From: a virus | Strand: one strand, 5' to 3' | DNA length: 64,000 nt | Virus record (IMG/VR): IMGVR_UViG_3300037193_001286 | Location: 1-64,000 of that record | Shown here: positions 3,940 to 63,816 of the stretch, one piece after another | Numbering within the stretch: the stretch's first letter is position 1 | How the letters are laid out: every line of letters starts with the position of its first letter | Position numbers and translations under genes: made by a program | Notes under the pieces: generated by a model | Seen by the model: only the letters and a program-made list of their open reading frames with translations | Told to the model about the DNA's origin: nothing | Database searches by the model: none

Positions 3940-4226
3940 CAGCCCCTAGCAGTTGACTGTTTTACCCCTGTTGTTACCCCGAGCAAAAATCGAAATCGCT
4001 AAGTGATTGAAATGATTGCATACCCAGGATTATGGCGGAAAACGAAGGAGCAACCGCTGAGGTAACTTTTTTACCCCCAGTAGACAACAGCGCTCCCGAT
4101 ATTTCTCCTGATTATCCAATCATATCAATACTATGTACATCACAGTTGACGACACCGGAAAACAGCTGTAATCATACCCCAGCGGTACACGATTTACCCC
4201 GGACTTTTTACCCCAAGGAAGCACCC
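3940..4226 (+). promoter_or_regulatory. Integrase leader with repeated TACCCC-type words
   Basis: This gap before the integrase has at least five copies of a T-rich tract followed by ACCCC (near 3960, 3973, 4068, 4192 and 4206), plus repeats of GACAACAG and AGTTGAC. Clustered short repeats beside an integrase gene are typical of arm-type integrase or excisionase sites of an attP region. The integrase frame is open through part of it, but the repeats and the good start at 4227 argue that it is not coding. Confidence 0.45.
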
Positions 4227-5537
4227 ATGACCAAGTCAACCAAGCGGCAGCTGACAGACATCGCTGTCCGAAATGCGACATCGACCGACAAGCGTCAGGA
4301 GATACCTGACGGCTTCGTCTCCGGCCTCTATCTGGTCGTGCAGCCCTCCGGCAAAAAGTCTTGGGCCATGCGCTACAAGTTCGGGGATCGCAACATCAAG
4401 CAGACCATCGGTTCCTACCCGGAAGTCTCGCTTGGCAAAGCCCGCGAACAGGCGAAGACGATTTCCGAGTGCCGGGAAATGGGCGGCAACCCGCTTGCCG
4501 ACATCGTGATCCAGAAGGACAACAATCTCCTAGAAGTCGTATTCGAGAAGTTCCTAACCCTGCACGTCGAGAAGAAGAATTCGGCGGGCACCGCCTCTCG
4601 CCGCCGCAACGTCTTCCACCGCGAGATCGAGCCGCGCTGGAAAGGACGTGTCGTTCAGTCGATCAAGCGCCGCGACATCATCGACATGCTGGATGAGATC
4701 GCCGAACGCGCGCCGGTCATGGCCAACCGCATCCACGGCTTCCTGCGCAAATTCTTCAACTGGTGCGTCGACCGCGAGTACATCGAGCACTCCCCGATGA
4801 ACCGGCTGAAGGCACCAGTGGACGAGGAAAGCCGCGACCGCGTCCTCGATCACGATGAACTCCGATTGGTATGGCTTGGCGCAGAGCGCATGGGTTATCC
4901 CTTCGGTCCTATCGTCCAAGCGCTCATCCTGTCGGCGCAGCGCCAGCAAGAAGTGGGCGCGATCAGCCGGAATGAATTGGGCGGCGCTCGCGAATTCGGC
5001 AGCAACACGCCAATGTGGACGATCCCGAAAGAGCGGACGAAGAACAAGAAGTCCGATCACATCGTCCCCCTCACCCCGATGCTCGACGACCTGTTCAGCG
5101 CCCAGCCGAAGATCATCGGCGATAAGGACTTCATCTTCACCTACACCGGCAAGCGCGCCGTCACCGGCTATAGCCATGCGAAGGACCGGCTCGACGATCT
5201 GATCCGTGCTGTCCAGCGCGAAGAAGCCAAGGCGCGCGGTGAGAACCCGTCGAAGGTTCCGCCGCTCGCACACTGGACGTTCCACGATCTTCGCCGGACG
5301 GCCGCGACCGGCATGGCCGCGCTCAAGGTCGATCCGCACGTCATCGAGGCGGTGATCAATCACAAGTCCGGCAACATCAAAGGCGTCGCCGCCGTGTACA
5401 ACCGCTATCAGTATTTCGATGAGAAATATGAGGCGTTGCTGAAGTGGGAGAACGCCGTTAAGCGGATCGTCACTGGCGAGGACAACGTCGTCTATCTCAA
5501 ATTCAACGTCGTGAACGACATGGATGGTAACGCGTGA
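4227..5537 (+). CDS. int: P4-type tyrosine integrase
   Basis: Four hundred and thirty-six residues from the ATG at 4227, with AAGGAAG just upstream. The N-terminal DUF4102 domain (residues about 1-90, GLYLVVQPSGKKSWAMRY) marks the P4 subfamily. The catalytic set is visible: Arg239 (SAQRQQE), Lys275 region, His353 and Arg356 (HDLRR), His379 (INHKSG) and nucleophile Tyr391 (VYNRYQY). It would catalyse site-specific integration and excision. No tRNA or duplicated att core is visible nearby, so the attachment site cannot be placed. Confidence 0.93.
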   Translation: MTKSTKRQLTDIAVRNATSTDKRQEIPDGFVSGLYLVVQPSGKKSWAMRYKFGDRNIKQTIGSYPEVSLGKAREQAKTISECREMGGNPLADIVIQKDNNLLEVVFEKFLTLHVEKKNSAGTASRRRNVFHREIEPRWKGRVVQSIKRRDIIDMLDEIAERAPVMANRIHGFLRKFFNWCVDREYIEHSPMNRLKAPVDEESRDRVLDHDELRLVWLGAERMGYPFGPIVQALILSAQRQQEVGAISRNELGGAREFGSNTPMWTIPKERTKNKKSDHIVPLTPMLDDLFSAQPKIIGDKDFIFTYTGKRAVTGYSHAKDRLDDLIRAVQREEAKARGENPSKVPPLAHWTFHDLRRTAATGMAALKVDPHVIEAVINHKSGNIKGVAAVYNRYQYFDEKYEALLKWENAVKRIVTGEDNVVYLKFNVVNDMDGNA

Positions 5538-6705: not shown

Positions 6706-7983
6706 CTACGTCGGTTTGTAGAACCGTATCCAATCGAGGGCCATGTCGCAGGGGAACGTCGTGTCGGTCGTCGGATCGCCCGGCCAACTGCCGCCCAGCG
6801 CCATGTTCAACAGCACATACCATGAGGCGGTCGGTGCGCGGTTCTCCATCTCCACCGTCTTCTTGCCGTCGATGTCAAAGACCAGACGCTGCGCGCCTAG
6901 CTCGATCCCGAAGGTGTGAAAGGCCGTCAGGTCTTCGGTGATTCCGAGCGCACGGATGTCGATGGGATAACCCAACTGCTGATGGCTGCCAGCCGCGCTC
7001 GACCAGTGCTGCGTCGTATAGAAGGTCCAAGCGTTATGACCGGAGTTGATCGGCCATTCCATCATGTCGATTTCCGGTGGCCAGTTAAAAGGCGGCATCG
7101 GCATTAGCCAGAACGCGGGCCATGCGGCGCGCTCGCCAAGAACCGGCATGGCAAACCGGGCTTCCACCCGGTCGCCGACCGTAACGGTGCGCAGCTTCCG
7201 GGATGTGATCATCGACGCGGTGTGCTTGAACGGCTCATATCCGATCACCTCCTTGGTCGTCGGCTCGACAACCGGCCGCCATGGGCAGAGCGTCGTCTTT
7301 CCGGCTGCATCCAGAACGCCGTCCGGGAAGTGTTCGGAGCGGAGAATTCGCTTGCCACTGACAATGGGGATTGGATCGGTTGCCGGATATAAGGCCGGAT
7401 CCACATAAAGCCCCAGCTCCTTATTGCCAGGCTGCGTCCGGCCGTGGGCTGGCCGTGATTGCCAGCAAGGCGAACCGTCTGGCGCTAACCCGGTATCGGT
7501 CGCCTGAAATCCGTCGATGAAGTTTGTCTCGTAGGCGACGGCAAACCCGGATTTGACGCCTGACGGAACGGTATCGCTAAAGGTGATCTTGCCGATCTGC
7601 CTCGCCACCGAAGCCCCGGCGATCGTCGAACTCAGGACTACCTCGATAGTTTTGCCGGGTGCATTGTTTCCCTTGAGCTGGATGACGATGTCCTGCTCTG
7701 TGGCCTCGCCCGGATGAAAGATGAACTTGCCAGACGCCCGAAGGTAGTTGGTGCCCTCATTGGTGCCGACGCCATTGCGCGTCAGCCACGAGCCGATGAC
7801 GGTATTACGGGGACTGCCGCTAAGCGAAAGCTTCAGGCGCGCTTCCAGCGCGTTCGGTAAGACGATGGCATCCGCAATAGTCACCTTGATCGATGTGGAT
7901 GCTTTCTCCGCAGTCAAGAAGTCCAGCCACCGCGAATTGAAGCCGATCAGATAGTCGATGTCTGGCGTGGATAGACGGGTCAT
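6706..7983 (-). CDS. GH16 glycanase, probable polysaccharide depolymerase
   Basis: Four hundred and twenty-five residues from the ATG at 7983 (AAGGA 7 bases upstream). Residues about 140-425 form a GH16 domain with the diagnostic EIDMME at 304-309, giving catalytic Glu304, Asp306 and Glu309, preceded by AAWPAFWLMP. Residues about 20-135 look like a beta-sandwich of the Calx-beta kind. GH16 enzymes cleave beta-1,3 or beta-1,4 glycans, and rhizobial exopolysaccharide glycanases belong here. No signal peptide is seen, so it may be carried on the virion or released at lysis. Confidence 0.85.
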   Translation of the reverse strand: MTRLSTPDIDYLIGFNSRWLDFLTAEKASTSIKVTIADAIVLPNALEARLKLSLSGSPRNTVIGSWLTRNGVGTNEGTNYLRASGKFIFHPGEATEQDIVIQLKGNNAPGKTIEVVLSSTIAGASVARQIGKITFSDTVPSGVKSGFAVAYETNFIDGFQATDTGLAPDGSPCWQSRPAHGRTQPGNKELGLYVDPALYPATDPIPIVSGKRILRSEHFPDGVLDAAGKTTLCPWRPVVEPTTKEVIGYEPFKHTASMITSRKLRTVTVGDRVEARFAMPVLGERAAWPAFWLMPMPPFNWPPEIDMMEWPINSGHNAWTFYTTQHWSSAAGSHQQLGYPIDIRALGITEDLTAFHTFGIELGAQRLVFDIDGKKTVEMENRAPTASWYVLLNMALGGSWPGDPTTDTTFPCDMALDWIRFYKPT

Positions 7984-8031
7984 AGCGAGTCCTTCCATGG
8001 GGAGTGGGCGTCATCTCGACGGCCGTTAATT

Positions 8032-8115: not shown

Positions 8116-8430
8116 TCACTGTCCGCTTGGCGGAACCCTCTTGCCTTCAAGAAGCGCGATCCTGCGGCGCAGATGGCGGATTGTGTTTTCCTGTCGCATC
8201 GCCAGCTTCTCTGCGATCACCAGTTCGTCACGCTGGCGCTGGATGATAGCGTTCAGTTCGCCGCGCTCCTCCTGCAACTGGTCGGTCAACTCTCGGAAGC
8301 CAGTCGTTATGGAAGAACCGAGATCGACGCGCGTTCGCGACCGCGCGACATAGACCGTTCCGAAGACGGTGACGATTGCGGTCACGACAGCGCCGCCAAA
8401 CGTGAGCAACGGAGCAAGGTCGAAATCCAC
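8116..8430 (-). CDS. Membrane-anchored coiled-coil protein
   Basis: One hundred and four residues: one N-terminal membrane helix (LLTFGGAVVTAIVTVFGTVYVA, residues about 8-29) then a long charged coiled coil (FRELTDQLQEERGELNAIIQ). The layout resembles i-spanins and phage membrane-tethered accessory proteins, but clear Rz/Rz1 genes occur 1 kb away. Function unknown. Confidence 0.65.
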   Translation of the reverse strand: MDFDLAPLLTFGGAVVTAIVTVFGTVYVARSRTRVDLGSSITTGFRELTDQLQEERGELNAIIQRQRDELVIAEKLAMRQENTIRHLRRRIALLEGKRVPPSGQ

Positions 8431-8619: not shown

Positions 8620-9000
8620 TTATCCGGTCCTTTGCAGTCTGCGATCCGCAAGATAGTCGTTGATGACCATGCCCGCCGTTATGACAGAGACGGCAGCCAT
8701 TGCCGCGCGGATCAGGATGTCCAGACGGTACACGCCGGTAAACAGAGTGACGACCGATGTCAGGTGCGAAAGCCCGCATAGAAAAATGAATGCGCCGAAC
8801 AGGAGGCGCATCGAAGGCCTGATGCGGGTGCGCGGCACTTGCTTGATGAAAATCAGTGATATGCCGATGGCGAAGTATGCGGCGAACGTCGAGAGATCGG
8901 CGAGCACGTAAAGGAAGATCATCAGCGGATCGTTGGTGAGGCAGATCGCATGCTGGCTATAGCGCTCCGCGCCGAAAAAATTCAGAATGTTATTCCACAT
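8620..9000 (-). CDS. Stand-alone ethylene-binding-domain-like membrane protein
   Basis: One hundred and twenty-six residues with three strongly hydrophobic helices. The pattern follows the N-terminal sensor domain of ETR1-type receptors: Asp35 and Tyr42 in helix 1 (ADLSTFAAYFAIG), Ile72, Cys75 and His79 in helix 2 (FGAFIFLCGLSHL), and a third helix AAMAAVSVITAG. The spacings D-7-Y-30-I-3-C-4-H equal those of ETR1 D25, Y32, I62, C65 and H69, where C65 and H69 bind the copper cofactor. ETR1 P36 is replaced by Gly46. No kinase or output domain follows; the protein ends 17 residues after helix 3. Confidence 0.72.
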   Translation of the reverse strand: MWNNILNFFGAERYSQHAICLTNDPLMIFLYVLADLSTFAAYFAIGISLIFIKQVPRTRIRPSMRLLFGAFIFLCGLSHLTSVVTLFTGVYRLDILIRAAMAAVSVITAGMVINDYLADRRLQRTG

Positions 9001-9457
9001 TGCGCACTACCTCGAATGGGAACTGAACGAGCACGTCCTGTTGCGAGTGCGTCGGGCACGAGCTATCGACGACTGAGCGATAAAGCCACCGACCGGGATA
9101 AACGCTTTCCGGCAGCTGAATATAGATTGTGGCATCGTCGGTTCGCTTGATCTCGGTCGACATGATGGGGCGACTGAGCACCACTGTTACTGGCGGCCCT
9201 CCCCCTTGATAGGTGAAGCTGGAAATGATTGTGCCGGGACAGGAGGCATTCCGCCGCGTGGACATCCGATAATGGAGGGCACCCCTGTAAGGAACGCTCT
9301 GGGAAATGTCGCTTGGCCCTTCGGTGACCTGGACGACCGGCCCCTCGACCGCGAAGTTATAGAGCACGCCGAACGAGATCGCCCCGGCAATAAGCGCAAC
9401 GCCTGCCGCCTGAGCGAACCAATACCACACGGTCGCGAGATATGCGGGGAACCTCAT
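8990..9457 (-). CDS. Hypothetical protein with N-terminal membrane anchor
   Basis: One hundred and fifty-five residues from the ATG at 9457 (GGAGG upstream). A membrane helix at residues about 15-35 (AAGVALIAGAISFGVLYNF) is followed by a beta-rich periplasmic-type domain with two Cys (residues about 70 and 135) that could form a disulfide. Its end overlaps the ethylene-receptor-like gene by 11 bases, so the two are coupled. No family is recognised. Confidence 0.65.
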   Translation of the reverse strand: MRFPAYLATVWYWFAQAAGVALIAGAISFGVLYNFAVEGPVVQVTEGPSDISQSVPYRGALHYRMSTRRNASCPGTIISSFTYQGGGPPVTVVLSRPIMSTEIKRTDDATIYIQLPESVYPGRWLYRSVVDSSCPTHSQQDVLVQFPFEVVRNVE

Positions 9458-9466
9458 CGGCACCTC

Positions 9467-9682
9467 CTACTTCCAGCACTTCTGCGCCCGGCCGAACGCA
9501 TTGTGTGCGGCGACGCCCTTCCCTGTGGGCGTCAATTCCGGATCACTTGCCAACTTGACGGCTCCTCCGGGGACTACGGGAATCTTCCTCCACCCCGCGC
9601 AATTGCTGGCATTCGTCGTGCACCCCGCCACCAAGAAGCTCATTGCAAAGAGCAATGCCATCCAAACCTTGAATCCTGTCAT
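9467..9682 (-). CDS. Rz1-like outer-membrane spanin lipoprotein
   Basis: Seventy-one residues with signal sequence and lipobox LVAGC (Cys21), then the alphaproteobacterial Rz1 pattern NCAGWRKI, ASDPELTPTGKGVAAHNAFG and a terminal CW motif. It would sit in the outer membrane and join the Rz-like partner to disrupt the envelope at lysis. The gene overlaps the Rz frame in another reading frame, as spanin genes often do. Confidence 0.82.
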   Translation of the reverse strand: MTGFKVWMALLFAMSFLVAGCTTNASNCAGWRKIPVVPGGAVKLASDPELTPTGKGVAAHNAFGRAQKCWK

Positions 9683-9839
9683 CGATCCGCTCCCTTTTTT
9701 CGATAGCGGCTATCGTGTCCTTCAATTGCTCTGTCCGCAGATCGCTACGGCCCTTCAGATAGCCAGCGCCGAACAACAGCACGGCGGCGATAAGTACCCC
9801 GGCGACAGCGCCCCATCTGCCGGTCAACAGAGCGATCAC
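9543..9839 (-). CDS. Rz-like inner-membrane spanin
   Basis: Ninety-eight residues: N-terminal membrane helix (AVAGVLIAAVLLFGAGYLKG), then a short coiled coil (LRTEQLKDTIAAIEKRERID). Position between endolysin and Rz1-like gene, plus overlap with the latter, identify it as the i-spanin. Its start overlaps the endolysin stop as ATGA. Confidence 0.75.
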   Translation of the reverse strand: MIALLTGRWGAVAGVLIAAVLLFGAGYLKGRSDLRTEQLKDTIAAIEKRERIDDRIQGLDGIALCNELLGGGVHDECQQLRGVEEDSRSPRRSRQVGK

Positions 9840-40274: not shown

Positions 40275-40537
40275 AGTCTATCCGTGAAATCATCGCTTAC
40301 AACAAGGAGCGGATGAAGGACTGCGAGGATGAGATCGCTCGCATCCAGAAGCTGCGCGAGAGCAAGGCTGTCACGACCGATGATCACGACAAGTGGATCG
40401 AGGGCTGGCGCGAGACGCGGGCGTTCTGCCGCGACACTATCGCCTATCTGACGACTCTTGAGCACTTCCAGAAGGCGTTAAAGAAGAAGCCCCCAAGCGG
40501 CGGCAACCGTGGGGGCTTCAACACTACTCGTCAGTAG
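40271..40537 (+). CDS. Coiled-coil hypothetical protein
   Basis: Eighty-eight residues, mainly coiled coil (REIIAYNKERMKDCEDEIAR, IQKLRESKAV). Last gene of the long + strand island operon. Its final codons contain the terminator hairpin of the opposing rsr transcript and its stop overlaps the rsr stop region. Confidence 0.55.
   Translation: MKSIREIIAYNKERMKDCEDEIARIQKLRESKAVTTDDHDKWIEGWRETRAFCRDTIAYLTTLEHFQKALKKKPPSGGNRGGFNTTRQ
40486..40519 (-). terminator. Terminator downstream of rsr (and of the + strand operon)
   Basis: GAAGCCCCCA (40486-40495) and TGGGGGCTTC (40510-40519) form a perfect 10-bp stem with a 14-base loop. Read on the minus strand the stem is followed by TTCTTTAA, ending the Y-RNA/rsr transcript. 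It may also slow the convergent + strand transcription. Confidence 0.75.
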
Positions 40538-56529: not shown

Positions 56530-58080
56530 CTATTCGAGCGTCTGTAACGTCCAGCGCATGATGCCGTTACGGTCCGGCTTGCCGACCAGTTTCCGCCGCA
56601 GCAGCACACGATCCTTCCATCGCTTCAGCCAGTAGCCGAACTGGCGCGCGTCGAGGTCGCCCTTGACGTTGCTGGCTACCTGCTTGACGACTTCCTGCCA
56701 GATGCCGGTGTCGGAAGTGATCAGGTGCGCGGCCGTGTCCTGAATGAAACCACCGTCAAGTTCGGTCGGCCAGTTCATGAAGACCGCTTCCGCCTTGTTG
56801 CGCTCCTCGTCATTGGCGCGAAGGCTGGTCATCGACACGCAAGGGTCTTCGTAGCCCAGCCAGCAGAGCGCTTCGCGAACCGTCTTCGACCATCGCTCAT
56901 AGGACGCCAGCGGCGGCAGACGCGCCGGGCGCTTGGCCTTGAGGTAGGAGCTGACGACGGTCAAGGCTGCGGCGACATACCGTCCCCGGTCAACGAGGAT
57001 GTGCCGATCCGGGCGGCCCCGATATTCGTGCTCCTCCGGCTTCTCCTCGTTGCGGTCCACGGTTGCCAGAATGGTGCGGCGCGTCAGGTCCGCCATCACC
57101 TGCAAATGGTTGCCGTTGGCGAACCATGTCACCCGTTGCTCGATCCGCGTGAGACTGGATGTGCCCAGCGGCCGGACGTCCACCACCGGTTCCGTCAGCG
57201 CCTGGCACAAGAGCGGCGAGTTGATCCGGTTGACGACGTTGTCGAGCGAGATGATCGGCATCCCCGCCATCATCACCGCCGTCAGGCGCTTTTCGAATTC
57301 CTCGCCCTTCTCTGCCGGTGGAATGACCGGGCATGGTCGGCCGGTGGCGATAAGGCTGGCGAGAGTCGACAGGTAGCTCTTGCCTGAACCGGGTGTCGGC
57401 GCTGTCACCGCGTGCAGCGGTGCTGTCGGCAGGATGCCACGGCAGACCGGCGTGATCAGCATCGAGAGCGCCACCGAACGCGATTCCTCGCCGACGAACT
57501 GGTATTCCTCAAGCAGCTCGTGCAGGACGTTGATCGCGCCGATGGCCTCGCCCTTGTCCGGCTCACTCTTTATCGCTGGCAGCGCCGGAAGATCGGCGAG
57601 CAACAACCTCGACGGTCGGTGCACGCCGGGTTCATCGACGATGTCGCCGTTTGATTCCAGCGTCTGCGCCGGGACGATGTTCGTCACTTCCGGAAATGGC
57701 CAGTGGCCGATCCGCGAGAGGATCAGCCTGGCGATGCTCTCCGGCGCATCGGTCATCACCCAATCGCGCCGCCGATTGTCGTACTTGAAGAAGATGCAGG
57801 CTTCTTCCATCAGATGGATCATTCGGCCCATGGTCACCGCCACAAGCCGGACGTTGCGGACCGGGATGTATTCGCCACCTTCCTCGCCAACCGTGTCGGC
57901 CTCGATTGCTATCACCAGCTGGCCAGCCGAGACGTAAACCGGGACATCGCGTTCCAGAATTGCGTCCTCGACTTCGATGCAGGTCGCGACCTGAGTGCCG
58001 GGCATGAGTTCGATTCGTTTGCGGTCCAGTTTTGGCGTCTTGTTGAGCATTTTTTCTTTCCCGTCATCGTCATCGGTCAT
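56530..58080 (-). CDS. AAA+ replication ATPase (helicase/primase-like)
   Basis: Five hundred and sixteen residues from the ATG at 58080, overlapping the helicase stop as ATGA. Walker A is APTPGSGKS at residues 227-235, and IISLDNVVNRINSP looks like the Walker B/sensor region. Flanking LMEEACIFFKYDNRRRDWVM and a C-terminal WQEVVKQVASNVKGDLDARQ (winged-helix-like) are typical of large phage/plasmid replication ATPases. No polymerase gene is visible, so host polymerase is presumably recruited. Confidence 0.78.
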   Translation of the reverse strand: MTDDDDGKEKMLNKTPKLDRKRIELMPGTQVATCIEVEDAILERDVPVYVSAGQLVIAIEADTVGEEGGEYIPVRNVRLVAVTMGRMIHLMEEACIFFKYDNRRRDWVMTDAPESIARLILSRIGHWPFPEVTNIVPAQTLESNGDIVDEPGVHRPSRLLLADLPALPAIKSEPDKGEAIGAINVLHELLEEYQFVGEESRSVALSMLITPVCRGILPTAPLHAVTAPTPGSGKSYLSTLASLIATGRPCPVIPPAEKGEEFEKRLTAVMMAGMPIISLDNVVNRINSPLLCQALTEPVVDVRPLGTSSLTRIEQRVTWFANGNHLQVMADLTRRTILATVDRNEEKPEEHEYRGRPDRHILVDRGRYVAAALTVVSSYLKAKRPARLPPLASYERWSKTVREALCWLGYEDPCVSMTSLRANDEERNKAEAVFMNWPTELDGGFIQDTAAHLITSDTGIWQEVVKQVASNVKGDLDARQFGYWLKRWKDRVLLRRKLVGKPDRNGIMRWTLQTLE

Positions 58081-59540
58081 GCGAACAACCATTGATTTGA
58101 GCGAAGCATCAGCACCTGTTTCTTGGCGCGGGTGATGCCGGTGTAGACCAGACGTCGCGCTTCCAGAGCGTCGCCGTTCCAGCCGGAATAGAGAAAGATC
58201 ACGCGCCCGAACTCCGCGCCCTGGACGGCGTGAACCGTCACGGCCCACGCGTATTCCAGCACCGTTACCAGCGCTTCGCGATCATAGGTTTCCTGAAAGT
58301 ATTCGACTTCGCCCTTGGCCTTATCGATGGCCCGGCGATAGTCCGCCTCGTCGCCGTCCTGATAGGCCCATTGCAGCATCGAAAGCGGGAAATAAAGCGG
58401 CTCCGGCTCAAACACTCTCGGCATCTCCCGGTTCGGCGTGCCGTCCTCATACGCCCGCTTCAGCCAGATTCTCCGCAGATGTTCGTGGTCGATCAGATCG
58501 AGCCGCAGATAGCCCTCCGGCGCATAGTCCGCATCCTTCGGCGGGAACGCCAGCTCCTTGCCCAGCGTCAGCATCATGGCGTTCTCAAAACCGTACTTGT
58601 TGCGCCGCCGCACGAGGAACCGGTCGCCGCGCATCAGCGGCCGGTCAATGCCGCAGCGGAATAGCGCCCTGCGGATCGCCGTCGTCGCCAGCCGTCTCAG
58701 CCGGTGATAAGGGGCGATGATGATGTCGGCCGCCCTTCCCCATCGTCCCCATTCCTCGTCATCGATATTGGCGAATGGCTGCTGGCGGCGGAAGGACGGC
58801 GAGGTGCGGACCGTGAACTGGCCATAATCGCCATCGTCGAAATGCGCCTGATCCTGCCGGAACAGGTTGCCGATCTGCGGGATGTTTGTCCCGCTGCCGC
58901 GCTCGATCTTCGTCAGCTCGTAGCCGACCGGGATCGTCTCGAATGCATTGTGGTGATGGCCAACCGGTGGGAGCTGGAAACTGTCGCCCAGAAGCAGGAT
59001 GCGGCATTTGGTATGCTCGACGATGTAATCGTAAATTTCCGGCTTCACCATCGAGTATTCGTCGATCACGAGGATGTCATTCTCGCCAAGCTTCGTCACT
59101 TGGCCTTGCGTGTCGAGGACGAAAATGTCCTTGAGGTATCGATCAACGTCGACCAGTTTCGAGCGCAACCATGGCCGCGTGTCCTGCGTCAGCTCGCCGC
59201 GCTCAACCCGCTGTTCCAGTCCGGCGAGCGCCTTGAGATATTCAGGTGTCTCGATCTTCTCGTGGCGGTAAAAGAGGGCGGCGACGGTCTTGCAGGGGAT
59301 CGGGCAATTCTTCAATTCGAGGCTGTTGGACAACCGTTTGGTGGCGATGTGCGAGACGCTTGATCCGATGGCTTCGACGCCGGGAAGCCGATTGAGAATG
59401 TGCGGGACGGTGTATGTCTTGCCGGTTCCGGCCGCGCCGTCGAGTTTGAACCATCGGTCGTTTTCGAAGGCCTTCAGCGCTGCCTCGACTGCGTGCTGCT
59501 GCCCGCCGTTCAGGACGCTCGCGCCGGTCCGCCGCCTCAT
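58077..59540 (-). CDS. SF1B DNA helicase (Dda/RecD2-like)
   Basis: Four hundred and eighty-seven residues. Helicase motifs: I DGAAGTGKT (34-42), II VIDEY (158-162), III GDSFQLPPV (185-193), V AVTVHAVQGAEF and VI VYTGITRAKKQ near the C-terminus. Homologous to phage Dda and RecD2. It would unwind DNA or displace bound proteins at the fork. Coupled to the AAA+ ATPase gene downstream. Confidence 0.92.
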   Translation of the reverse strand: MRRRTGASVLNGGQQHAVEAALKAFENDRWFKLDGAAGTGKTYTVPHILNRLPGVEAIGSSVSHIATKRLSNSLELKNCPIPCKTVAALFYRHEKIETPEYLKALAGLEQRVERGELTQDTRPWLRSKLVDVDRYLKDIFVLDTQGQVTKLGENDILVIDEYSMVKPEIYDYIVEHTKCRILLLGDSFQLPPVGHHHNAFETIPVGYELTKIERGSGTNIPQIGNLFRQDQAHFDDGDYGQFTVRTSPSFRRQQPFANIDDEEWGRWGRAADIIIAPYHRLRRLATTAIRRALFRCGIDRPLMRGDRFLVRRRNKYGFENAMMLTLGKELAFPPKDADYAPEGYLRLDLIDHEHLRRIWLKRAYEDGTPNREMPRVFEPEPLYFPLSMLQWAYQDGDEADYRRAIDKAKGEVEYFQETYDREALVTVLEYAWAVTVHAVQGAEFGRVIFLYSGWNGDALEARRLVYTGITRAKKQVLMLRSNQWLFA

Positions 59541-60109
59541 TGATCACCTCCCATGGGGTTTTCGCGCGCGATCCGCTTCAGCGCCGTAAGCATCTCGGCG
59601 CGTGTCAATCGCAAGCCTTGCCGCAGCAAATACTCATAGAGGCCGGAGGCATCCGTCTCGGTGAGCACCCGCATGGTGAAGTCCGGTTCCCAGTCGTCCG
59701 GAAGGCGACCCTTGAGCATGATCTTTTTGGTCGCCAGATCGAAACCAAGGATACCAGAAAGCGCCGGGTCTTCCCTCATCGCAATCGCGGCGTTTGCCGC
59801 TCCCTTGAGCGGTTTGCCGGTGTCGTCCCGGATGAGTTGCTGATGCCATTCCGGCGTTTGCGGCTTTCGCGGTCGCGGCGGATTGAAGCCGCGCTGCCGG
59901 TATTCCTCGGCGAATTTGCGGAACTGATCTTTCTGGCAATCCGGCCGGTGCGTCTCGCCCTGGTCGGCGTCGCACCAGAGGCATCCGCCATCGTGGCGAA
60001 CGGCTTGCTCGAATTCCGGGCCGAACGTCCCGTTCCTCAGCGCCATGAAGAAAGTCACGAACGATCGACGATCGAGGTCAACGAGGAAGCGGAGCATATC
60101 CTTAGACAT
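59537..60109 (-). CDS. VirE-like N-terminal segment protein with zinc motif
   Basis: One hundred and ninety residues from the ATG at 60109. A Cys/His motif CLWCDADQGETHRPDC (about residues 41-56) suggests a zinc site. The segment AAIAMREDPALSGILGFDLA followed by KIMLKGRLPDDWEPDFTMRV resembles the linker just before the catalytic part of VirE-type replication proteins. That catalytic part is missing here, so it may be a loader or primer factor for the neighbouring ATPase. Confidence 0.62.
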   Translation of the reverse strand: MSKDMLRFLVDLDRRSFVTFFMALRNGTFGPEFEQAVRHDGGCLWCDADQGETHRPDCQKDQFRKFAEEYRQRGFNPPRPRKPQTPEWHQQLIRDDTGKPLKGAANAAIAMREDPALSGILGFDLATKKIMLKGRLPDDWEPDFTMRVLTETDASGLYEYLLRQGLRLTRAEMLTALKRIARENPMGGDQ

Positions 60110-61412
60110 CGCCCCTCCCCCAGTCCTCGACGAGCTGGATGCGCTCGCCAACCCAACGACCGACATTGACCGCCCATGCGTTGCCTATCGCCCGGTAGCG
60201 TGGCCCGTCCGGCGAGTGTGCCCTGCCGCGCCATGGAACATTGGTCCAGTCGTCCGGCAGCCCTTGCAGACGTTCGCATTCTCGCGGGGTTAATCGGCGA
60301 ACCGCGTAGGCGGTCGGCACGAAGGCACCCTGATCGAGATCGTTGCGCCAACCGCGCGCGCCGTCGCCAGCGCCCAACGGCTGGGCCACCGCCAGCTGGC
60401 CGCCGGCGTTTGCGTGGCTGCCGTCGAAGTTCATCGCCCGCATCGCAGGTGTTGCGCCGTCGTCGCCGAAACCATGCCGTTTGGAATCGAAGGCGACCGC
60501 TTGGCTGTAGCCGTCCTCGTCGAGGGAACCGGGGATGTCGGCGGGCACAGGATCCTGTCGCGCATTGAACGCGATCAGCGCGCCTCGCTCGCTCGGCATG
60601 CGGTTGGTGCTCGCGGCCATGCCAGCGGTGAGCGCATGAGCGATCATCGTCTGGCCTTCATCCATGGTGGTATTGACGCCCTTGTGCATGCGGGCTGTCA
60701 GGCCGTTGGCAACTCCGGGGACGGCGATGATGTCGTCCTGTCCTCTGGAGTCTCCGGGTCGTTCAACGCCCCGGCCACTGCCTGTAAGGCATGAAGCAGT
60801 AGGTCGGGCATAACCTTGCCCCGACGCGCGGCGCGGCGCAGGATTCCAGCGCAGGCTTTCCGGCTCAAGTAATACTTGCGCGGGACGTCGCCAGTCGGTT
60901 CCAAGATATCCGACAACGAACACACGGTTCCGTCGTTGGGGGACGGCGCGAGCGTGACCGGCCACTCGGACATATTGAGCGTCAAGCACTCGCCAGGCCG
61001 CAGAATACCCGCTGACTTCCAGCCCTCTGAGGAGCGTTTCAAAAGCCCGTCCTTGGTCCTGCGACAGGACACCGGGGACATTCTCCCATATGATCCACTG
61101 GGGGCGATAATGGCGAATGATCGCCAGATAGGCGAACATGAGTCCGCCACGCGGGTCATCCAGTCCCTTGCGCAATCCGGCGATAGAAAATGACTGACAG
61201 GGGCTTCCGCCGCAAACAAGGTCAACTGATCCAAGGTCTGGCCACCCTTCATATGCGGTCACGTCACCAAGGTTGGCGACATCCGGGAACCGATGCGCGA
61301 GAACGGCGGATGCGAACCTGTCCACCTCGGCATGGGCGACGCACTGCCAGCCAAGCGGCTCGAATGCGAGCGATGCAGTGCCGATGCCTGAGAACAGGTC
61401 GAGATAACGCAT
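60102..61412 (-). CDS. C5-cytosine DNA methyltransferase
   Basis: Four hundred and thirty-six residues. Motif I DLFSGIG (5-11), motif IV GGSPCQSF with catalytic Cys72, motif VI ENV (110-112), motif VIII QRRNR (159-163), and motifs IX-X (VRRLTPRECERLQGLP, IGNAWAV). Residues 180-370 are the target-recognition region, with a phage-type insertion. No restriction enzyme partner is present, so it probably protects phage DNA. Stop overlaps the VirE-like gene. Confidence 0.92.
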   Translation of the reverse strand: MRYLDLFSGIGTASLAFEPLGWQCVAHAEVDRFASAVLAHRFPDVANLGDVTAYEGWPDLGSVDLVCGGSPCQSFSIAGLRKGLDDPRGGLMFAYLAIIRHYRPQWIIWENVPGVLSQDQGRAFETLLRGLEVSGYSAAWRVLDAQYVRVAGHARAVPQRRNRVFVVGYLGTDWRRPAQVLLEPESLRWNPAPRRASGQGYARPTASCLTGSGRGVERPGDSRGQDDIIAVPGVANGLTARMHKGVNTTMDEGQTMIAHALTAGMAASTNRMPSERGALIAFNARQDPVPADIPGSLDEDGYSQAVAFDSKRHGFGDDGATPAMRAMNFDGSHANAGGQLAVAQPLGAGDGARGWRNDLDQGAFVPTAYAVRRLTPRECERLQGLPDDWTNVPWRGRAHSPDGPRYRAIGNAWAVNVGRWVGERIQLVEDWGRGDV

Positions 61413-61617: not shown

Positions 61618-62132
61618 GCCATCTTCTCCCAGAAGCGGATTTCATGGACGGATGAGGCCCAGAGGCCGATCAGGATCGCCTCGGCTTCATCGACGGATCG
61701 GTATTTGATGTTCAGGTGCTGGCAGGTCTCTTTGGCGCGGCGCTTGGCCACCTCGCGCGACAGCTTTCCGTCGCCCAGAATTGCCGCTCGCCATGTGGCG
61801 ACCGCGACGCCCAGAAGGTGGATGTCGAGCGCTGCGCCGACGCCAATGATCGCGCCTTCGATATTGTGCAGGATCATCGACGCCGCGTTCGGCGTGACGA
61901 ACCCTTCGTTACCGGGCAGCAGTCCCTTCTTGCCGTACATCTTGATCGAGCGGATCGCCCGTTCGAAGACAATGACCTTCGGTCGCCACTCGCCGACAAG
62001 CAGCGTGAACTTCTGGGCGAAGTCCTCGACGCCATCGGATCGCAACGTGCCGGATGCCATGCACTCTCGACCGTCGAAGATCGCCCAACCGGACGCGGTC
62101 TTGGATGGATCGACGGCGAGGACGCGCATCAT
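61614..62132 (-). CDS. RuvC-like Holliday junction resolvase
   Basis: One hundred and seventy-two residues of RNase H fold. Asp8 (LAVDPSKTASGWAIFD), Glu57 (VIVFERAIR) and Asp148/Glu151 (SVDEAEAILIG) give the metal-binding set of RuvC-type nucleases. It would cut branched DNA during replication or packaging. ATGA overlaps on both sides. Confidence 0.85.
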   Translation of the reverse strand: MMRVLAVDPSKTASGWAIFDGRECMASGTLRSDGVEDFAQKFTLLVGEWRPKVIVFERAIRSIKMYGKKGLLPGNEGFVTPNAASMILHNIEGAIIGVGAALDIHLLGVAVATWRAAILGDGKLSREVAKRRAKETCQHLNIKYRSVDEAEAILIGLWASSVHEIRFWEKMA

Positions 62133-63607
62133 GCCGCACCCCCGAACAATGGCCCGGCGTCGAGTTCGGCTTTTCCGGATCGCTTGATAATCTCGCGCGC
62201 TTTCTCATCCGGCCCGGCGAGGCAGAGCCGCATGCGTTCGGCGATGTCTTGCTGATATTCCGGTTCGCGCTCGACCAGGATCGCGTTGAAGCCTTCGCGC
62301 CAAGCCGCCTCGCCGGTCGTTCCGGTTCCAGCGAATGGATCGAGCACGGTGCCACCGGGCGGTGTCACCAGCCGCACGAGGTATTGCATCAGATCGACAG
62401 GCTTCACGGTCGGATGTTTCGATCCGATGCGGTCCTCGGCGTCGGCTTTGGCAGAATAGAAAAGGCTCGATGGCGGCACGCCCGCACGGCGCGCGCCCGG
62501 TAGCATGGCGAAGTCGGTCGCGCCTGCCTTGTCGTAGCGCCGCAAGGCCGATGGCTCGTCCGGCCGGGCCGCATAGAAGAAGCGAGCTGCGGAACCTGTG
62601 TCCTTCACGCCGGGGCGCGTGATCCCGTTCGCCCCACCATGGTAGCCCATCGTTCCGTTGGGATCGTTGTTCCCGCCGATCTGCCCATCGACCTGCGGGA
62701 AGCACGCGATCACCTCGTCGCTGCCGTCGTGGATGACGTTCGCGGGCCAGCGGCCGGTCGAGGTGTCGATCTCGCCGGTCCGGTTGCTGCCGTTCTTTCC
62801 ATCGCCATAGCAGTTCAGAGCCGCTTCGCCGCGATGCGTGAACTTCGGTACGCCGTCCGGAGCATGAACCCGGCACGCGTCGATGTTCACCGCGCCCGTT
62901 TCCCAGAACAGGATGTTGGCCGCGCCGTTCCTTTCGGTGAAGGGCTTCTGGCCCATATAGATCGGCTCGATGGCTGGTTTCAGCGACTGCCCGCCGTAGT
63001 GCCAGCCGTTCCACCTTGCCGCTTCCGCCGATCCCGGAACGTAAGCGCCCGGTTGATAGACGCGATCCTCAAGCTTTTCCCAGCTGCCGTCCTTGTTCTG
63101 GTCCGCGCCTGGTCGGATGCGGCGCACGGTATTGCCGTTCGCCATCTTCTCACCTTCCCGGCCCAGCTCCTTGTCGATGGCGCGGGCGGCATTGTGTGCC
63201 TTCGGGAACCCGGAACCGAAAATCCATGCGATCAGCGGATGGGTGATGAAGCCCGCGTCTTCGATGGCGACCGACATTCGGCCGAAGCCGCGCGTCGAGG
63301 CGAAGGCCAAAACGTAACCGCCCGGTTTCAGAACGTGGAAGACGGCTTTCCATGTCTCGACACGGAAAGCGACGTCGCCGCCGTCCCAGAGCTTGTTCAT
63401 AAAGCCGCGAGCGGTGCGCTGATGCGGCCCGCTTTTCGTCCGAGTCTTGTCGGTTCGACCGGTCTTGGCGAAGCGCTTGGTGATACTGTGAAGATGGTAC
63501 GGCGGATCGCAGACGACGGCATCGACGGAATTCTCCGGCATGGCCGCGAGCGCGTCGAGGCAGTCGCCGGGATACAGGATGACGCGGCCGTCGAGGAACG
63601 AGATCAT
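62129..63607 (-). CDS. Beta-class DNA methyltransferase (CcrM-like order)
   Basis: Four hundred and ninety-two residues from the ATG at 63607. Catalytic DPPY at 34-37 precedes the SAM-binding DPFAGTGTT at 423-431, the beta-class order of CcrM and many N4/N6 methyltransferases. A long target-recognition region lies between. KHPTVKPVDLMQYLVRLV before the SAM motif is typical. The gene is translationally coupled (ATGA) to the GcrA-like zinc protein upstream. Confidence 0.9.
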   Translation of the reverse strand: MISFLDGRVILYPGDCLDALAAMPENSVDAVVCDPPYHLHSITKRFAKTGRTDKTRTKSGPHQRTARGFMNKLWDGGDVAFRVETWKAVFHVLKPGGYVLAFASTRGFGRMSVAIEDAGFITHPLIAWIFGSGFPKAHNAARAIDKELGREGEKMANGNTVRRIRPGADQNKDGSWEKLEDRVYQPGAYVPGSAEAARWNGWHYGGQSLKPAIEPIYMGQKPFTERNGAANILFWETGAVNIDACRVHAPDGVPKFTHRGEAALNCYGDGKNGSNRTGEIDTSTGRWPANVIHDGSDEVIACFPQVDGQIGGNNDPNGTMGYHGGANGITRPGVKDTGSAARFFYAARPDEPSALRRYDKAGATDFAMLPGARRAGVPPSSLFYSAKADAEDRIGSKHPTVKPVDLMQYLVRLVTPPGGTVLDPFAGTGTTGEAAWREGFNAILVEREPEYQQDIAERMRLCLAGPDEKAREIIKRSGKAELDAGPLFGGAA

Positions 63608-63816
63608 CGGCGAGGTCTCCGATGGTCCCGCTGGTGCCAACAGCGGTCATGGTGCTCTTCGCAAAAAAACGAGCCGCGAATGACCGGCTTGCCACAAAAC
63701 ATATACCAACCTGTGATGGTATGGTCCTCATGAACCGGGAACCGACACTGCCGGTCATTGAGGGTATGGAGGGGTGCATTGCATTGTGACTGCTGGGCCG
63801 GTTCAGCTGGCTGCAT
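63604..63816 (-). CDS. Stand-alone GcrA-like zinc-binding protein
   Basis: Seventy residues from the ATG at 63816, preceded by GGAGG. RQCRFPVHEDHTITGWYMFC followed by GKPVIRGSFFCEEHH matches the C-terminal zinc segment of GcrA regulators (CRxPIGDPx...FCGxPxxxGxPYCxxH), but the GcrA N-terminal HTH is missing. In alphaproteobacteria GcrA binds CcrM-methylated promoters; here the gene directly precedes a CcrM-like methyltransferase. Confidence 0.7.
   Translation of the reverse strand: MQPAEPAQQSQCNAPLHTLNDRQCRFPVHEDHTITGWYMFCGKPVIRGSFFCEEHHDRCWHQRDHRRPRR

Follow-up and report, generated by a model that had tools for sequence, protein, structure and literature searches.

Among the lysis genes of a temperate virus resides the gene for a small membrane protein (E) that is a phage-specific, stand-alone relative of the ethylene sensor domain of ETR1-type receptors. 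E is probably located in the inner membrane, and would carry there the Cys-x3-His pair which binds Cu(I) in ETR1. In known receptors, ethylene-binding domains (EBDs) make up the sensor end, with a kinase or similar output attached. E is tentatively viewed here, with somewhat less than even confidence, as the copper-site membrane subunit of an envelope complex formed with the products of the P, S and C genes, its likeliest role being the tuning of lysis. The window, i.e. the whole stretch of 64,000 nucleotides analyzed, belongs to a 73,858-base IMG/VR virus record; features discussed are collected in Table 1.

E matches the Pfam family PF25487 (ETR1_N) with 66 bits (E-value 3.7e-18, profile positions 2-88 of 97), the curated gathering cutoff of the family being 27 bits. 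Matches above cutoff were obtained in the window and in 16/16 other genomes or records scored. No PHROG family describing E was found by PHROG search, and no solved EBD structure was matched by sequence search of the PDB. Seven residues are needed for ethylene binding by ETR1 (D25, Y32, I35, P36, I62, C65 and H69; PMC11819568, PMC6586836), and Asp25, Cys65 and His69 have been given as the copper site (PMC12643061). Six of the seven are kept in E with the spacing of ETR1, Asp35, Tyr42, Ile45, Ile72, Cys75 and His79 corresponding to Asp25, Tyr32, Ile35, Ile62, Cys65 and His69; the single change replaces Pro36 by Gly46. Judging from these residues, E probably binds copper as Cu(I). The first-pass annotation had recognized a 126-residue EBD homologue standing alone in a phage, the proline change and all the kept residues save Ile45, and the alignment bears it out.

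The AlphaFold model of E (mean pLDDT 89.3) consists of three long helices (residues 25-51, 62-88 and 91-125), in agreement with the EBD fold initially proposed. The best Foldseek matches in the PDB are NuoK-like three-helix chains (E > 0.2), and VIA-align Z scores, about 9 for E, are uninformative for helical bundles. The reading frame stops after TM3 and a short tail, with no kinase or other cytoplasmic output domain attached, as had been noted from the start, and no kinase is encoded close to E in the neighbouring frames scanned with Pfam. The TM1-TM2 loop has four K/R and no D/E residues, the tail three K/R and two D/E, and the TM2-TM3 loop is neutral, a charge pattern suggesting an N-out, C-in topology. 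E shares with the sensor domains of ETR1, SynEtr1 and AzoEtr1 the PF25487 match above cutoff, the three TM helices, the positions Tyr32, Ile35, Ile62, Cys65, His69 and Ser98, and the H-x-x-C found before TM1 in bacterial proteins. Unlike ETR1-type receptors, it has no GAF, PAS or kinase domain, Pro36 is replaced and the cytoplasmic side is not conserved; invariant periplasmic motifs are new, P and C are regular companions, and the gene sits in a phage lysis operon.

Table 1. Position in the window, strand and supporting evidence of the features discussed.
Feature	Position	Strand	Evidence and remarks
Tyrosine integrase	4032..5537	+	phrog_1, Pfam Phage_integrase
C, 104-aa TM and coiled-coil protein	8116..8430	-	phrog_2658; homologue beside E in 10/10 intact phage-type loci
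S, 61-aa TM protein with short charged helix	8434..8619	-	homologues in 7 loci
E, stand-alone ETR1_N/ethylene-binding-domain (EBD) protein	8620..9000	-	126 aa, 3 TM helices, invariant Cys75/His79; Pfam, AlphaFold, alignments
E, periplasmic TM2-TM3 loop FxGVYRLD	8719..8742	-	residues 87-94; mean identity 0.74 in six distant phage proteins
E, periplasmic N-terminal motif FGAERYSQHxxCLTNDP	8926..8976	-	residues 9-25; mean identity 0.75 in six distant phage proteins
P, 157 aa, one TM helix, then predicted periplasmic beta-sandwich	8990..9463	-	alignments, AlphaFold; conserved Cys pair (SCPG, SxCP)
Rz1-like lipoprotein o-spanin	9467..9682	-	lipobox LVAGC; weak phrog_1275 Rz-like match; overlaps i-spanin in another frame
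Rz-like i-spanin	9543..9839	-	phrog_12535; phrog_8821/1026 Rz-like
GH108 endolysin with PG_binding_3 and C-terminal hydrophobic segment	9836..10708	-	Pfam PF05838, 97 bits; phrog_315 endolysin

Genes for terminase, portal, capsid/protease, tape measure and lambda-J-like tail proteins are present in the contig, and by this gene content the virus is a siphophage. The same genes, together with the integrase, rule out contamination by bacterial DNA. The tyrosine integrase indicates a temperate phage, and close relatives are temperate as well. No tRNA was found by tRNA search of the phage. Two genomes from the order to which Chelatococcus belongs carry relatives of its capsid protein (40-47% identity), and phage-type E genes reside in the genomes of Chelatococcus reniformis and Methylobacterium soli, downstream of endolysin genes.

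On the minus strand the genes are ordered endolysin, i-spanin, o-spanin, P, E, S, C. P and E overlap by 11 nt, 0 nt separate E from S and 3 nt S from C, and frames adjoin or overlap at the junctions. No credible promoter or terminator was found from the endolysin gene to C in consensus scans covering sigma-70-type sites. As far as this layout tells, the E gene is part of an unbroken, translationally coupled lysis operon; E would be made together with the lysis proteins, and is presumably expressed late. The neighbourhood had been correctly described in the first-pass annotation, with the overlapping P gene, S and C after E, and endolysin and spanins before it. The AlphaFold model of P (mean pLDDT 84.7) shows a helix at residues 5-37 and strands, and the Cys pair is kept among the closer homologues in alignments. 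A more specific fold was dropped, since NPC2, the Wzt carbohydrate-binding domain, RbmA and other unrelated beta-sandwiches tie near Z 9, and P is called a probable beta-sandwich only. Relatives of P and C were not detected by tblastn in 50,697 annotated phage records. Next to the lysis module lies a gene for a GH16 glycosidase (6706-7998, minus strand), whose N-terminal part is possibly Calx-beta-like (phrog_17064); the enzyme may be a capsule or exopolysaccharide depolymerase.

Phage homologues of E, a search for which had been suggested at the outset, occur in diverse phages and in two prophages. In viral-contig scans, identity to E is 76-82% in L002/L006, L003, L007 and L008, 57% in L004/L011, 48% in L009 and 46% in L010; more distant stand-alone EBDs were found in L025, L027 and L028. 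EBDs of viral contigs L021-L024 and L026 reside in receptor-like frames of 352-479 aa, and were left out of the stand-alone set; they may be phage genes acquired from hosts, or bacterial sequence binned as viral. In the annotated phage collection the sole homologue is gp65 of Maribacter phage Molly (60.9 bits; QQO97550.1, annotated as hypothetical protein). Like E, gp65 is a phage EBD adjoining an endolysin, of the amidase type, and keeps Cys and His; it is encoded after a TM coiled-coil protein, and has Asn for Asp and Ser for Pro. Unlike E, it has 25% identity in the aligned region, no P and a very long tree branch. About 160 C-terminal residues of the Molly EBD protein (L005:5893-6762) have no Pfam match, and may constitute a different output.

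Ten phage-type proteins, from diverse phages and the two prophages, form one clade (support 100/99). The other phage EBDs fall outside it, their exact placement being unsure owing to long branches. A strict scan with the phage motif gave no match in 84,980 bacterial and archaeal species genomes; in a looser scan the prophage copies of Chelatococcus and Methylobacterium were among the best 80 cellular matches. Among some 545 genomes searched in the order and the family, scores of the phage type (>112 bits) are confined to C. reniformis and M. soli; the other EBD matches listed score at most 85 bits and reside in frames of at least 390 aa. Similarly, every cellular EBD in 297 genomes of the order resides in a receptor-sized frame of at least 378 aa. 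Phage-type E was thus found in the sampled bacterial genomes in prophages only. C. reniformis also hosts a degenerate extra copy of the module (L030), with P and E remnants interrupted by internal stops. In the M. soli prophage, P seems to be duplicated in tandem (L035:3135-3995, 286 aa), the Cys pair being present in the first repeat only. No publication on phage EBDs was found by full-text search of the open-access literature.

Six unrelated endolysin families score above cutoff near stand-alone copies, including those of lineages other than the clade of E: GH108 (window group and L035), Phage_lysozyme2 (L004), GH19 (L010), Muramidase PF11860 (L009 and L029), Amidase_3 (Molly) and VanY/M15 peptidase (L028). 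A possible seventh, Phage_lysozyme in L027, is below its cutoff, and no recognized lysis enzyme was found near the EBD of L025. The linkage therefore outlives the exchange of the lysis enzyme, and on the strength of this persistence a part in lysis, or in when it occurs, is the foremost hypothesis for what the domain does. Accessory genes also gather in phage lysis regions, so that position alone is no proof of a role in lysis. Of ten intact phage-type loci, nine have P and all have C beside E. P without E was not found in any of 397 genomes, and a single-sequence scan of viral contigs with P retrieved only the E-bearing loci already known. L009 has no P in the record examined, yet the periplasmic motif of its E is intact, and may therefore bind something other than P. 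Agrobacterium phages 7-7-1 and Milano have, like the window, a homologous GH108 endolysin with a C-terminal hydrophobic segment and overlapping i- and o-spanins; unlike in the window, the cassette ends after the spanins, without P-E-S-C. The module is therefore an addition to the lysis genes, neither core nor essential.

E is a real coding sequence. Its dN/dS is 0.05-0.11 vs. four related phages (dS 1.4-3.0, saturated or nearly so), and is the lowest in the cassette; in the same pairs the endolysin gives 0.13-0.22 and C 0.14-0.20. Chance resemblance to an EBD was ruled out by the Pfam score, this purifying selection and the phage-only clade. Tyr42, Ile72, Cys75, His79 and Ser105 are invariant in 13/13 phage and 41/41 cellular rows. 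Cys75 and His79, on whose conservation the initial proposal hinged, are invariant in every phage homologue aligned and in 57/57 rows overall; cellular loci were retrieved by a Cys-containing pattern, and the invariance of Cys is there partly built in, while one phage retrieval used patterns lacking Cys and His. Conservation is different at two other positions, Pro36 being kept in 1/13 phage rows vs. 40/41 cellular rows, and Asp25 in 7/13 vs. 39/41 (rows are related to each other, and Fisher values on these counts are indicative only). The faces of the protein differ as well. Across six distant phage proteins, identity reaches 0.75 for the N-terminal motif and 0.74 for the TM2-TM3 loop, as against 0.22 for the cytoplasmic loop and 0.11 for the tail. 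The corresponding values in 12 cellular EBDs are 0.41 (N-terminal segment), 0.53, 0.40 and 0.55. As read from these alignments, in phages the cytoplasmic side, through which cellular EBDs feed a kinase, is no longer the conserved one, its place being taken by the periplasmic side. This shift suggests that E probably belongs to a membrane switch and is not a conventional ethylene receptor.

On the simplest reading, E would pass its output to the periplasm, most likely to P: the N-terminal motif and the TM2-TM3 loop would form a face docking to the P beta-sandwich. S and C would contribute cytoplasmic coiled coils, and P, E, C and often S would assemble into one envelope complex, the formation of which is inferred from the linkage of the genes. 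The metal site could make this complex a sensor, or a stability switch, responding to copper, to the redox state or to a small ligand of Cu(I), and the switch may delay, trigger or condition lysis by the adjoining endolysin and spanin genes. That lysis is controlled by the complex is a working hypothesis. Small membrane or periplasmic phage proteins can condition lysis in T4-type antiholin/lysis inhibition (RI, RIII, holin T), as proposed for E; no copper-site domain is known in those systems. The use of a copper-binding fold for another purpose, raised as an alternative in the first-pass annotation, fits the evidence best. It is rather doubtful that phages repeatedly removed the hormone-receptor sensor domain from histidine kinases and turned it into a copper-site, periplasm-facing switch of a membrane complex, conditioning lysis on an envelope signal. 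Were this true, E would be the first lysis regulator of the gas- or metal-receptor type. That E keeps the copper pair intact and has its conserved face redirected, with no kinase attached, suggests that EBDs can work kinase-free, and E provides a 126-aa object on which signal passing by EBDs can be tested. The cassette points to an undescribed accessory module of phage lysis operons and, if E controls lysis, would tie the decision to lyse to the chemistry of the environment.

P-E-S-C might alternatively be a superinfection-exclusion or envelope-immunity module, blocking DNA entry by other phages and lying, as accessory genes do, beside the lysis genes. Membrane and periplasmic proteins added to the set that 7-7-1 and Milano have alone, the temperate lifestyle of the phage and its close relatives, and the strongly conserved periplasmic face of E would all suit such a module. 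It is unlikely, if the least so among the alternatives: the module is coupled to the lysis genes and has no recognizable promoter of its own, no match to exclusion families was found in Pfam or PHROGs, and the EBD gene also resides in Molly, whose complete genome lacks a tyrosine integrase. A smaller probability is assigned to E as a true sensor of ethylene, or of another olefin or gas, with Cu(I) at Cys75/His79 and a plant signal timing lysis or induction. Six of the seven binding residues are kept in E and its four nearest relatives, and an isolated bacterial EBD, AzoEtr1 1-130, binds ethylene (PMC11819568). Yet Pro36 is lost in 12/13 and Asp25 replaced in 6/13 phage proteins (1/41 and 2/41 in cellular EBDs); both are among the seven residues required by ETR1 (PMC11819568, PMC6586836), Asp25 belonging to the copper site (PMC12643061). 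Provided that the mutational data on ETR1 apply here, these losses argue that ethylene, the ligand first proposed, is not what the family generally senses; such sensing seems unlikely for the whole phage family, and possible in the subgroup of the window, in which Asp25 is present. Nor do the hosts found, C. reniformis and M. soli, and the distant homologue in a marine phage, that of Maribacter, speak for a plant signal or bear out the plant-associated host assumed at first.

A holin role for E, with its three helices oligomerizing through a borrowed EBD fold into a hole releasing the endolysin, is very unlikely. Size, three TM helices and cassette position would fit, and no other obvious separate holin is seen in the window cassette. 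The Chelatococcus prophage cassette, which includes P-E-S-C, has a recognized holin of its own (PF23987, 44 bits), and this makes the assignment less likely; moreover, the metal-ligand pair and the periplasmic motif are strictly conserved, and structure matches of E to holins are not significant. No holin family is among the Pfam and PHROG matches of E, holins being diverse as a class. Least probable of all is a decoy, heterodimerizing with an EBD histidine kinase of the host to jam signalling during infection. In the model of ETR1 (PMC6586836), EBD dimers are held together by helices 1 and 2, and both prophage hosts carry a fused EBD protein, vs. about 11% of the order (33/297). The latter argument comes from two hosts only, conservation of TM1 is low among phages (0.37), unlike that of the periplasmic face, and the tight linkage of E to P, C and endolysins would be left unexplained.

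Elsewhere in the window, a 486-aa TROVE (Ro60-like) and VWA protein is encoded on the minus strand at 40524-41984 (PF05731, 41.7 bits; phrog_850), a putative phage RNA-binding protein of the Ro60 type. Two DNA methyltransferases are encoded on the same strand at 60102-61412 and 62129-63640, near a gene for a Dda-like helicase (58077-59540).
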